From Pseudomonadota bacterium (GTDB lineage Bacteria; Pseudomonadota; Gammaproteobacteria; Steroidobacterales; Steroidobacteraceae): a stretch of DNA of 43,673 bases. The stretch covers positions 1 to 43,673 of the forward strand of contig JABBNZ010000028.1 of NCBI GenBank assembly GCA_019352035.1. The letters run 5' to 3'. The position numbers were made by a program, and so were the translations under genes. The notes below the pieces were generated by a model. It was not told the DNA's origin. It did not search any database and saw only the letters and a list, made by a program, of their open reading frames with translations. Of this stretch, positions 8,618 to 31,621 are shown in pieces; the first letter of the stretch is position 1; each line of letters opens with the position of its first letter.

Positions 8618-8812
8618 GTCGACCCCGGAAGCATGAAGCGGCCCATCACATGCCCCAGGCCACACGGAGGTGCCCCGCCGCCACAGGGCGAGGCGGTGCT
8701 TCCAGCGAAGCACTGCTTCGCTCCGCCGAGCGCGCCTCGGGCAAAACCCACGCGCTTTGCCCGAGGCGCGCTGGACCGGGCAGGACGCCCGGCTCCAGCG
8801 CTTCATATGAGG
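8618..8812 (-). repeat. Dispersed double-hairpin repeat, copy 1 (long)
   Basis: A GC-rich palindromic element fills the space after the HD-domain gene, touching its stop codon. Read leftwards it begins GAAGCGCTGGAGCCGGGC. Hairpin 1 has arms GCGCTGGACCGGGC / GCCCGGCTCCAGCGC (about 8768-8801). Hairpin 2 is a perfect 14-base stem GCGCCTCGGGCAAA / TTTGCCCGAGGCGC (8732-8769). A CGCCGCCACAGGGCGAGG block and a terminal GCCGCTTCATG follow. The same succession occurs after mdh, and in shorter form inside rlmJ and the methyltransferase gene at 30896-31621. Whether it acts as a terminator, RNA stabiliser or mobile repeat is unknown. Confidence 0.75.
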
Positions 8813-14230: not shown

Positions 14231-15184
14231 TCAGCCGTTCAGGCGGCGCACGCCGGTCCCGCCACCGTGCCCCAGATCCAGGCGGGCGTGCAGCTGTGGG
14301 AGCCAGCGCTGCATACGCTCGCCCAGCTGGTAGGGAGGGTTGAGGATGAGCATCCCCGAGCCGTTGAGGGCGACACGAGAGTCGCTGGGGTAGAGCGACA
14401 GCTCCCCCGCGAGCAGCTCGCAGTCGAGCTCGCCGGCGAGCGCGTCGCACCAGGCGGCCGTGTCGCGCTCGTCCTTGATCGGATACCAGATCGCCACCAC
14501 GCCGGTATGGAAGCGCCGCAGCGCTTCCAGGGCCGCCTGCCGGGCGCGCTCGAAGTCCTCCCGGCTTTCCTCGTAGGGCGGATCGATGAACGTCAGCCCG
14601 CGGCGCTCGGGCGGCGGCAGCCAGGCGCGAAGGAGCGCAAAACCGTCGCCGGTCTCGACGGTGAGATGAAGCGCAGGATCCGGGCTCCTGCCCGGCCCAG
14701 CGCCGTCTCGGTCAAAATGGGTGGTTTTTGCCGGAGACCCGGCCACCTGCGGCGGCCGGGCACGTCCCTGTGCCTGACCCGACAGTGCCCTCTGCAGCGC
14801 GCGGGCCTCGGCCGGGATACGCTCGATGAAGACCGCACGGTCCTGCGGGCGCAGCTCGCTGGCGGCCAGCAGCGGCGAGCCCGGATACAGCCGCGGCGCG
14901 CCGAGCTCGCGGCGCAGCAGCGCCACCCGCTCAACGTAATCCCGGAGCTCCTCGGCATCCTCCGGGCGGGCGGCATCGGCCGGGGATTTCCGTTCCAGCC
15001 GACCGATGCCGGTGGCGGATTCTCCAGACGGCCCTGCGAGATCGTAGGCGCCGCGGCCGGCGTGCGTCTCGAGGTAGAGAAAGCCCTTTTCCTTGCGCTT
15101 GAGGGCCGCCAGCAGGGCGAGCAGGGTCACGTGCTTGTGCACGTCGGCGAAATTGCCCGCGTGGTGGACGTGCCGGTACTTCAC
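14231..15184 (-). CDS. rlmJ: 23S rRNA (adenine-N6) methyltransferase RlmJ with inserted segment
   Basis: Methylates A2030 of 23S rRNA in E. coli. The start is a GTG at 15184 with GGAGG seven bases upstream; the protein then begins VKYRHVHHAGNFADVHKH, matching the family N-terminus (YRHSFHAGNHADVLKH in E. coli). FLYLETHAGRGAYDL carries the SAM site and LTFIDPPYEE the catalytic DPPY motif. The 317 residues exceed the E. coli length (about 280). The excess is explained by about 36 residues (about 135-171, from GQAQG to SPDPAL) encoded exactly by a dispersed repeat (14671-14779) that splits the region between the GSPLLAASELRPQD segment and TVETGDGF. The frame remains open. It follows the Mce lipoprotein gene by 11 bases, so it is probably cotranscribed. 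Confidence 0.93.
   Translation of the reverse strand: MKYRHVHHAGNFADVHKHVTLLALLAALKRKEKGFLYLETHAGRGAYDLAGPSGESATGIGRLERKSPADAARPEDAEELRDYVERVALLRRELGAPRLYPGSPLLAASELRPQDRAVFIERIPAEARALQRALSGQAQGRARPPQVAGSPAKTTHFDRDGAGPGRSPDPALHLTVETGDGFALLRAWLPPPERRGLTFIDPPYEESREDFERARQAALEALRRFHTGVVAIWYPIKDERDTAAWCDALAGELDCELLAGELSLYPSDSRVALNGSGMLILNPPYQLGERMQRWLPQLHARLDLGHGGGTGVRRLNG
14671..14779 (+). repeat. Dispersed double-hairpin repeat, copy 2 (inside rlmJ)
   Basis: Begins GCGCAGGATCCGGGC and forms hairpin 1 with GCCCGGCCCAGCGC. A second, less perfect stem around GTCAAAA / TTTTTGCC follows, then CACCTGCGGCGGCCGGGC and the end CCTGTGCCTGACCC. The order of blocks matches the copies at 19948 and 31497. 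It is 109 bases long and keeps the rlmJ frame open on the opposite strand. Confidence 0.8.
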
Positions 15185-18968: not shown

Positions 18969-19946
18969 ATGAAGCCAGCCTTGAATGTCGCGATCACCGG
19001 TGCCGCCGGCCAGATCGGCTATGCCCTCGCCTTCCGCGTCGCCTCCGGACAGCTCCTCGGACCGGATCAGCCCGTCAACCTGCACCTGCTCGAGGTCACG
19101 CCGGCGCTTCAGGCACTGAACGGCGTCGTGATGGAGCTGGCCGACTGCGCCTTCCCGCAGCTGAACGGGCTGGTGGCGAGCGATGAGGCCAAGGTCGCCT
19201 TCCGCGACTGCCACGTGGCGCTGCTCGTCGGCGCTCGTCCGCGCGGTCCGGGCATGGAGCGCAAGGATCTGCTGCTCGCGAACGCGCAGATCTTCTCCGC
19301 CCAGGGCAAGGCGCTCAACGAGGCCGCCGACCGCAACGTGAAAGTGCTCGTGGTCGGCAATCCCGCCAATACCAACGCGCTCATCGCCCGCTCGAACGCA
19401 AAGGACCTCAACCCGCGCAACTTCACCGCCATGATGCGCCTGGACCACAACCGCGCGCTGTCGCAGCTCGCGCAGAAGACCGGCGCGCACGTGACCGACA
19501 TCCGCCGCATGACCGTGTGGGGCAACCACTCCGCCACGCAGTATCCGGACATCAGCCATACGCTGGTCAAGGGCAAGCCGGCGCGCTCCCTCGTCGATGC
19601 CGCATGGGTGGAGCAGAGCTTCATCCCGGTGGTACAGCAGCGCGGCGCCGCCATCATCAAGGCGCGCGGAGCCTCCTCGGCGGCATCGGCCGCTTCCGCC
19701 GCCATCGATCACGTTCATACCTGGATCCACGGCACCGGGGAGGGCGACTGGGTCAGCATGGCGGTTCCCTCCGACGGCAGCTACGGCATTGCGGAGGGAG
19801 TGATCTACTCCTATCCGGTGACCACCCGTAACGGCGAGTACCAGATCGTCCAGGGCCTCTCGGTCGACGAATTCAGCCGCAAGCGGATGGACGCCACCCT
19901 GGCGGAGCTGAAGGAAGAGCGCGAGGGAGTGCAATCGCTTCTTTGA
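18969..19946 (+). CDS. mdh: Malate dehydrogenase
   Basis: NAD-dependent malate/oxaloacetate conversion in the TCA cycle. The 325-residue protein has the nucleotide loop GAAGQIG (11-17), the mobile substrate loop [15 protein letters not shown] (from residue 88), [11 protein letters not shown], catalytic RLDHNR and the active-site His187 in [11 protein letters not shown]. It resembles the type of MDH found in betaproteobacteria and xanthomonads (close to the cytosolic eukaryotic group) rather than the shorter E. coli enzyme. The gene is intact and is followed two bases later by a dispersed repeat. Confidence 0.97.
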
Positions 19947-19947
19947 A

Positions 19948-20156
19948 AGGCGCTGGATCCGGGCTCGTGCCCGGCCCAGCGCGGCGGCGGGCAAACGCGC
20001 GGTTTTTGCCCACCGCCTCGCCCTGCGGCGGCGGGGCACATGCTGGTGCCTGTCACACGGCCGTGCCGCTTCATGATCCGGGGTGGACGGGCACCCCGGA
20101 GCTTTGCGCGCAGCAGGGAGTGGGCAGCGCAACGCCCTGATCCAGCGCTTCATACT
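19948..20156 (+). repeat. Dispersed double-hairpin repeat, copy 3 (after mdh)
   Basis: Starts GGCGCTGGATCCGGGC immediately past the mdh stop and folds with GCCCGGCCCAGCGC. Hairpin 2 has arms GGCGGCGGGCAAA / TTTGCCCACCGCC (19983-20017). CTCGCCCTGCGGCGGCGGGG and GGTGCCTGTCAC follow, then GCCGCTTCATGATCCGGGG, which copy 1 also has. The right end reads GATCCAGCGCTTCAT, so the whole is bounded by GCGCTGGATC / GATCCAGCGC in inverted order; the last 95 bases may be a second, degraded copy facing the other way. It could help end mdh transcription. Confidence 0.75.
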
Positions 20157-30895: not shown

Positions 30896-31621
30896 TCAGA
30901 ACTGGGACTCGAGCTCCCAGACGGTGAGGGGGGCGCCGCGGCGCAGCCAGAAGCCCGTGCCGACCTCGCGGAAATTTCGTTGCAGGCGCAGCCGATACCA
31001 GCGCGCGGTGCGCAGGTGCACGTTGGAATCGGTTCTCACCGGGTCGCAGTTCCACTCCCAGTCACGCTTCGTCAGGGCACTGAAGTACAGCACTCCGCGG
31101 CAGAGCCGCCCGAAGTTGCTCAGGGCCCGCGCGGCGGTGCGGGCATCGAGATATTGGAGGACGTCGTAGCAGATCACGAGATCGAAAGCGGCGGCGCTGC
31201 GGTACTCCTCGATGCGGCCTTGCTCCCAGCCGTAACGGCTGCAGAGATAAGCGCTGGTCTCCAGACCGACGTATTCTGTCCTCGGCAGGAGGCGCTGCAG
31301 GGGTGCGCGCAGCATGCCGGTACCGCAGCCGGCGTCGAGGAGTCTGCGTACCGGCAGGCCGACGTGCTCGGTGAATGCCGCGATGAGACGCGCGCGGGCC
31401 TGCATCTCCCGCCGGGTCGTTACCGCCGTGCGCGGGTCGTAGTAGTAGCGGCGATAGTAATCCCGATCGAACGCCACCGCGGGCTTCTGTTGTGGAACGC
31501 TGGATCCGGGCGTCCTGCCCGGCCCGGCGCGGCGGCGGGCGAACAGCGTGGTCTTTGCGCGCTCGCCACCTGCGGCGGCGGGCGCGTCCTGTGCCTGATT
31601 CGCGGGTCCGCGCGTTGTCAT
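30896..31621 (-). CDS. SAM-dependent methyltransferase with repeat-encoded N-terminus
   Basis: Class I methyltransferase of 241 residues; the substrate is unknown. The SAM site is LLDAGCGTGMLRAPLQ, followed by TEYVGLETSAYLCSRYG, FDLVICYDVLQYLD and YFSALTKRDWEWN. The first 40 or so residues (from QAQDA to RTPGSS) are encoded by a copy of the dispersed repeat (31497-31602); the recognisable protein begins near AVAFDRDYYRRYYYDP. The ATG at 31621 shares ATGA with the SDR stop, so translation through the repeat is likely. Without that coupling one would place the start later, but no good in-frame ATG precedes AVAFDRDYY. Confidence 0.85.
   Translation of the reverse strand: MTTRGPANQAQDAPAAAGGERAKTTLFARRRAGPGRTPGSSVPQQKPAVAFDRDYYRRYYYDPRTAVTTRREMQARARLIAAFTEHVGLPVRRLLDAGCGTGMLRAPLQRLLPRTEYVGLETSAYLCSRYGWEQGRIEEYRSAAAFDLVICYDVLQYLDARTAARALSNFGRLCRGVLYFSALTKRDWEWNCDPVRTDSNVHLRTARWYRLRLQRNFREVGTGFWLRRGAPLTVWELESQF
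31497..31602 (+). repeat. Dispersed double-hairpin repeat, copy 4 (methyltransferase N-terminus)
   Basis: Begins ACGCTGGATCCGGGC with hairpin 1 closing on GCCCGGCCCGGCGC, then GGCGGCGGGCGAA, CACCTGCGGCGGCGGGCGCG and the end CCTGTGCCTGATT. About 106 bases. Read leftwards it encodes a peptide with AKTT, AGPGR and TPGSS blocks, in the same frame as the copy inside rlmJ. Confidence 0.8.

Follow-up and report, generated by a model that had tools for sequence, protein, structure and literature searches.

Introduction

Short palindromic repeats fused in frame with coding sequences have been described for several bacterial repeat families, including the Rickettsia palindromic elements (RPE), ERIC, NEMIS and others (passages of Delihas 2007, PMC2229807), and an RPE-bearing guanylate kinase (Gmk) is described there as translated and active, with a changed affinity for its substrate. 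Repetitive extragenic palindromic sequences (REPs), among them the GTAG and CGTC repeats, are likewise reported within open reading frames (ORFs) of several species in extracts of a 2013 paper (PMC3733652). In this work we describe a dispersed four-hairpin repeat which lies in frame inside rlmJ, the gene of the 23S rRNA methyltransferase RlmJ, in a Pseudomonadota bacterium of the family Steroidobacteraceae; the window is the whole stretch of DNA analysed, 43,673 nucleotides long (contig JABBNZ010000028.1 of assembly GCA_019352035.1, positions 1 to 43,673). We consider it likely that a non-autonomous repeat entered the rlmJ linker in frame, in an old event shared by four species, and that it is tolerated as a translated loop. 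In-frame palindromic insertion is a known kind of event; the repeat family, the host lineage and the gene appear to be new, and in the open-licence literature no paper was found that joins RlmJ with insertion and palindromic, or Steroidobacteraceae with repetitive extragenic palindromic.

The RPEs, as portrayed in parts of these two papers (PMC2229807, PMC3733652), are palindromic repeats of 105-146 bp that occur in frame inside conserved enzymes, and in this respect the RlmJ insert resembles them, as the initial annotation had suggested. The parallel holds as a way of working and not as a close one: the present family is found in another Proteobacteria class, is G+C-rich, mainly intergenic and placed after stop codons, and is not tuned in length, and in place of many in-frame insertions a single in-gene case was found among the ORFs scanned. 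The likeness to RPE is one of description and is not put forward as membership. The GTAG and CGTC REPs, to judge from the extracts of PMC3733652, share with our repeat the hairpins by gene 3' ends, the termini that (in GTAG REPs) often supply a TAG stop and the occasional position inside ORFs; those REPs, however, are 20-40 bp long, with GTAG repeats often near RAYT (REP-associated tyrosine transposase) genes, whereas the present unit is ~110 bp long and has four hairpins, and its ~109-bp core is not a palindrome of 20-40 bp with GTAG at one end. According to the relevant passages of PMC2229807, the Correia/NEMIS (~107 and 155 bp) and ERIC repeats are similar in being shorter than 200 bp, in coding for no protein of their own, in their open frames and in their terminal TA, and NEMIS also has two size classes. 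The Caulobacter CIR repeats are similar in length (~110 bp), intergenic position and separate hairpin arms, with no end-to-end hairpin, but have stops in all frames and are not placed inside genes in those same passages (PMC2229807), whereas the present repeat is mostly stop-free in every frame.

Results

A repeat copy in frame inside RlmJ

The repeat copy in rlmJ (Table 1) was placed at 14669-14776 by nhmmer (91.5 bits), and the boundaries given by the covariance model agree within a few bases with those first annotated (14671-14779). Counted from the GTG start, it encodes residues 137-173 of RlmJ (37 residues), in frame and antisense, and the gap in the alignment with E. coli RlmJ coincides with it. 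The ~36 extra residues originally proposed fit the element itself, but the net excess is smaller: measured against the nearest empty sites (L numbers being locus labels), it amounts to 30 residues relative to L043, L044 and L055, and to 31 relative to L047 and L049; relative to E. coli it is ~34 residues. The alignment with these nearest empty-site relatives, ~30 residues shorter at this point, bears out the in-frame insertion of a repeat. The closest other copy scored in the same genome is 94% identical to the rlmJ region over 109 bases (E 7.7e-42).

By profile, fold and catalytic motif the host protein is an RlmJ. Its PF04378 match (Pfam, E 3.1e-50) is split into two stretches, phmmer against E. 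coli RlmJ (4blu) aligns residues 2-132 and 175-304 with a jump between them, and the E. coli RlmJ chains match by sequence with E ~1e-44. The best Protein Data Bank (PDB) matches of an AlphaFold model built with 49 sequences (mean predicted local distance difference test, pLDDT, 87.8; predicted template modelling score, pTM, 0.88) are E. coli RlmJ structures, with 6qe5_B as the top Foldseek match (E 1.1e-26, template modelling (TM) score to target 0.92). The DPPY motif is kept, as had been annotated, and D201, P202 and P203 are invariant across 49 aligned sequences. Residues 145-147 and 149-168 of the insert have pLDDT below 50, and this low-confidence segment sits between helix 124-140 and strand 173-178 of an otherwise well-formed RlmJ fold, in line with the surface loop suggested in the initial annotation. 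Based on the model, the insert is likely an exposed, unstructured loop, and the RlmJ fold is probably preserved around it, with the insert as a tolerated, floppy segment.

It could be argued that rlmJ is untranslated, or that the repeat was mis-assembled into it, the source assembly being in 217 contigs, some of which begin or end at the repeat (L010, L013 and L017). Closely similar junctions in four assemblies, together with the strong purifying selection on the rest of rlmJ (pairwise w 0.14-0.17 outside the insert), make such a pseudogene or artefact barely credible; a single full-length RlmJ was matched in the source assembly. We infer that the insert is translated and that RlmJ activity is retained.

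Four species share the insert, always in frame and with codon position and orientation agreeing, namely the query, L040, L041 and L042 (the last three belonging, by contig and position, to genomes G076, G079 and G061), and none of the four genes has a stop or a frameshift, L041 having a 6-base deletion at the edge. The site is empty in 8 other aligned relatives (L043-L047, L049, L052 and L055; DNA compared for six), and a search with the insert peptide gave an rlmJ match in 4 of the 58 genus genomes. The nearest RlmJ relatives are metagenome-assembled genomes of Steroidobacteraceae, Gammaproteobacteria or Proteobacteria. No relative was seen to carry the insert residues in a genome free of other copies: L040, L041 and L042 share these residues but also bear many copies elsewhere.

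Table 1. Features of the window discussed in the text.
Feature	Position	Strand	Details
rlmJ, 23S rRNA (A2030-N6) methyltransferase	14234..15184	-	GTG start, 317 codons, stop 14231-14233
Dispersed four-hairpin repeat copy, short form, antisense to rlmJ	14666..14776	+	Covariance model 117.4 bits (this copy being among the 39 used to build the model)
DPPY motif, RlmJ residues 201-204, intact, downstream of insert	14573..14584	-	Coordinates computed from GTG start
Repeat copy, long form	19948..20052	+	nhmmer 68.4 bits
Repeat copy between short-chain dehydrogenase/reductase (SDR)-like ORF (by eye) and methyltransferase ORF	31496..31596	+	nhmmer 55.1 bits
Repeat copy, diverged or rearranged, two pieces (8734-8803 and 8661-8710)	8661..8803	-	nhmmer 46.5 and 19.4 bits

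Structure and abundance of the repeat family

Copies of at least 50 bits were taken for the consensus and the hairpin survey. The alignment of 39 copies, from which L013, L027 and L035 as well as the L023:120 copy and both pieces at 8661-8803 were excluded, has a core of ~109 bases with four hairpins, the second of which shows many pair-keeping changes on both sides. Over the whole structure, 13 of the 27 predicted pairs have at least one sequence with a pair-keeping double change, and the stem cells comprise 982 Watson-Crick, 11 G-T, 13 A-C and 38 other combinations. Since G-T and A-C mismatches are about equally rare, neither strand is preferred in a way that would speak for an RNA role; a search of the window against Rfam gave no family at the gathering threshold. 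On the mRNA strand, the fold of the rlmJ copy is better than that of shuffles (z -3.1), and not clearly so on the other strand (z -1.6).

A long form runs on through a conserved TCATGA and another hairpin, and often terminates in GGGAA-CTA or GGCAA-CTA; some tandem copies have CTAG in common. The triplet CTA stands at -8 to -6 in 39 of 99 copies, and 20-50 bases past TCATGA in 22 of 40 long-form candidates. An outer stem is predicted in the single-sequence fold of the long-form consensus but is absent from the alignment consensus of 14 copies, and therefore we make no claim for it.

Regarding coding capacity, copy length modulo 3 equals 0, 1 and 2 in 13, 12 and 14 of the 39 copies, respectively. 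Of the 39 copies, 38 have no stop in the antisense frame that RlmJ uses (compared with ~30 in shuffles), and each of the six frames is stop-free in 33 to 38 of them. Judging from these sequences, the repeat permits translation without being tuned to it.

A search with the rlmJ region gave at least 45 matches in its own genome at E<=1e-3, well above chance (40 of 176 first-look candidates scored), and the covariance model found at least 97 copies (150 of 6441 candidates scored); 11 matches of at least 28 bits in a 515 kb sample (38 stretches chosen by contig number) extrapolate to ~96 per genome. The window has the repeat in four places. The repeat consensus matches 35 of the 58 genus genomes (own included) at E<=1e-3; the match falls below 1e-20 in 18 of these and is weak in others.

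Placement relative to genes

The repeat is mainly intergenic, just 3' of genes. An ORF stop falls within -20 to +3 of the repeat left end in 26 of 41 own copies (random mean 1.6, maximum 7), and near the left end in 30 of 69 copies of the relatives (random mean 2.6, maximum 7), which include loci chosen for long open frames. This test used ORFs of at least 120 codons, with 200 sets of displacements as the random expectation, and its counts exclude copies scoring under 50 bits and those whose match begins beyond model position 5. The commonest stop is a TAG or TAA at -7, often in the context CTAG-TTTGAAGCGC, and the enrichment marks the family as stop-codon-associated, a trait also described for GTAG REPs (PMC3733652).

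RlmJ is the sole scanned ORF in which a Pfam family flanks the copy on either side. The own set has 30 distinct ORFs that span a copy and extend at least 45 codons beyond either end of it (some of them one genomic place under two locus ids), of which RlmJ and 19 others were scanned, along with 20 of the 48 rows from the relatives; no family on both sides was found by Pfam in these 39 other spanning ORFs or in the start-defined ORF 30896-31621. Because Pfam misses some genes, and ORFs and copies were scanned in part, the one in-gene case is a lower bound. Several candidates were set aside. The 1006-aa frame at G002:C18 is antisense to a penicillin-binding protein-like ORF (by eye), which ends a few bases before the repeat; the 353-aa frame of L001 adjoins a neighbouring ORF whose start reads like CysB; the copy of L172 lies between two divergent ORFs; and L014, L035, L037, L178, L246 and window 30896-31621, with a domain on one side only, most plausibly reflect insertions upstream of a gene or next to it.

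Rates of change in the insert

Between the insert-bearing species, synonymous (pS) and nonsynonymous (pN) differences are 0.18 and 0.11 in the insert, and 0.44 and 0.10 in the remainder of rlmJ. Synonymous change in the insert is below that of the flanks in three species pairings (Fisher p <2e-4), and also below that of the 60 nearest flank codons (p 0.001-0.005, three pairings). Between the query and L042, the differences at the three codon positions are 0.13, 0.13 and 0.16 in the insert, and 0.13, 0.10 and 0.36 in the flanks; they are spread nearly evenly in the former, unlike in the latter. Taken together, the insert changes slowly, though not in the manner of a coding sequence. At matching sites between the own genome and one relative, six other copy pairs are 81-91% identical over their aligned positions, with 1-9 gap columns, and the rlmJ pair is 91% identical, with 2 gap columns that cancel (for one of these seven pairs, L029 with L240, the site was matched by a single flank). 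As the other pairs are similarly alike, slow change is a property of the repeat family.

These rates bear on the hypothesis that the insert peptide was recruited for a protein function in RlmJ. The frame is kept in four species and the pooled pN/pS of the insert is 0.60, but its bootstrap interval (0.31-1.19) includes 1, there is little or no third-position excess of change, the loop is predicted to be without structure, and the 8 empty-site relatives do without it; altogether, we find recruitment very unlikely. The sequence comparisons point instead to the DNA element being constrained or homogenised, and not to selection on the peptide, and the slow change may reflect DNA constraint, conversion between copies or recent re-insertion. 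A further idea, which we regard as possible though doubtful, is that the rlmJ element is maintained as DNA, with a conservation independent of codons, being a hairpin element and a translated enzyme loop at once; the hairpin may then bind a protein, or be held uniform with other copies by conversion.

Other copies and side observations

The left end of the long-form copy at 19948..20052 provides the TGA stop of ORF 18969-19946, malate dehydrogenase-like by eye. Beside the copy at 31496..31596, the methyltransferase ORF has Methyltransf_12 at residues 95-175, and its ATG overlaps the stop of the SDR-like ORF (window 31496-31621); read from that ATG, the protein has a repeat-coded N-terminal extension (open antisense frame) which is not in L192 and L193, and a downstream GTG is a possible true start. 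The copy at 8661-8803 has an extra short palindrome between the second and third hairpins.

In L035:1097-1183, together with L208, L221 and L237, copies near or without the first hairpin adjoin a common stretch of ~90 bases, 91-97% alike between two species, which could make them a composite or point to a second repeat family; L023:120-208 resembles them by eye. At the matching sites L036/L207 and L019/L220 of two species, both arms of the second hairpin have changed in a compensating manner, which looks as if one subfamily had replaced another (by conversion or re-insertion). L158:9758-9815 is a partial copy with the first 38 positions only, directly before a tRNA-like gene (by eye).

Discussion

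A single origin of the rlmJ insert is favoured by the common site, orientation, form and frame, and by GGTCAAAA, which all four rlmJ copies carry where the family consensus has GGGCAAAA; we infer one ancestral insertion followed by losses. Several observations weigh against this history. In a tree of six neighbouring genes (named by eye except RlmJ, with some genes missing in some species), the query, L040, L041, L042, L043 and L044 form a clade (100/100), inside which L040 and L043 are sisters (98/98); the insert-bearers are united in 0% of 200 bootstrap trees, and the approximately unbiased (AU) test gives p 0.0325 against them as one clade. Losses, recombination or repeated insertion are therefore needed, and a search for a deletion scar gave no signal in L043 or L044 (183 and 372 of 1000 shuffles, respectively, being as good). 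Additionally, the own copy L001 stands at least as close to the rlmJ copies as they do to one another (own-L040 0.935, own-L001 0.935), which weakens the argument for one origin; the L042 copy is closest to L001, and GGTCAAAA is also seen outside rlmJ, in the single copy L021.

These observations could be accommodated if one subfamily had entered the same rlmJ linker separately in several species, which would explain the scattered distribution, with insert-bearers that are not a clade, and why each copy stands close to the subfamily consensus, the rlmJ copies being as near to L001 as to each other; at other loci, moreover, the element is markedly site-selective. Nevertheless, the same codon, orientation, short form and frame in all four species and the shared GGTCAAAA, at a site without the CTAG/CTAA motif found at many left ends elsewhere, render such parallel insertions unlikely. 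Homologous recombination, by which an insert that arose once would have moved between species with a short rlmJ tract, and so would look younger than the species, is also compatible with the scattered distribution and with the low insert divergence. The neighbouring codons argue against such a tract, as the synonymous difference among insert-bearers is 0.450 over the 30 codons before the insert (0.535 in pairs with L043/L044) and 0.388 over the 30 codons after it (0.391 in such pairs), and we judge this route quite improbable.

Under the favoured single insertion, the repeat would be a non-autonomous palindromic element, probably a mobile one, from a genus-level lineage of Steroidobacteraceae-like Gammaproteobacteria; in its short form it would have entered, antisense, the variable RlmJ linker between the helix and the strand described above. 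Because the antisense frame has no stop codon, the ribosome would read through the element, adding a proline/arginine-rich loop of 37 residues, around which the catalytic domain would fold and which the cell would tolerate. The insertion looks old, because four species carry it at the same codon and in the same orientation and frame.

With respect to mobilisation, PF01797 (Y1 transposase) had no match in 5 of the 7 relatives searched, 4 of these 5 having at least 30 copies; one intact Y1 frame (140 aa) is present in the own genome, and partial matches in G040 and G042. Mobilisation by RAYT/IS200 was rejected as a general explanation, since the Y1 transposase is unmatched in most relatives searched. 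The insertion sequence IS630 (DDE_3) was also rejected as parent, in a weak test, its three matches at two own-genome places having ends unlike the repeat. At the seven Y1 and DDE_3 loci there was no good match to the ends expected of a parent, other transposase families not having been searched. The repeat may differ from miniature inverted-repeat transposable elements (MITEs) such as Correia/NEMIS in its apparently minimal, TAGTT-like terminal inverted repeats, and no parent insertion sequence was found in the few loci examined.

Conclusions

With this family, a G+C-rich gammaproteobacterial lineage joins the known cases of in-frame palindromic insertions. The orthologous filled and empty sites in close relatives can separate neutral tolerance, peptide recruitment and DNA-level constraint, and the strong stop-codon placement, together with the lack of a Y1 match in most relatives searched, leaves the mobiliser as a tractable question.
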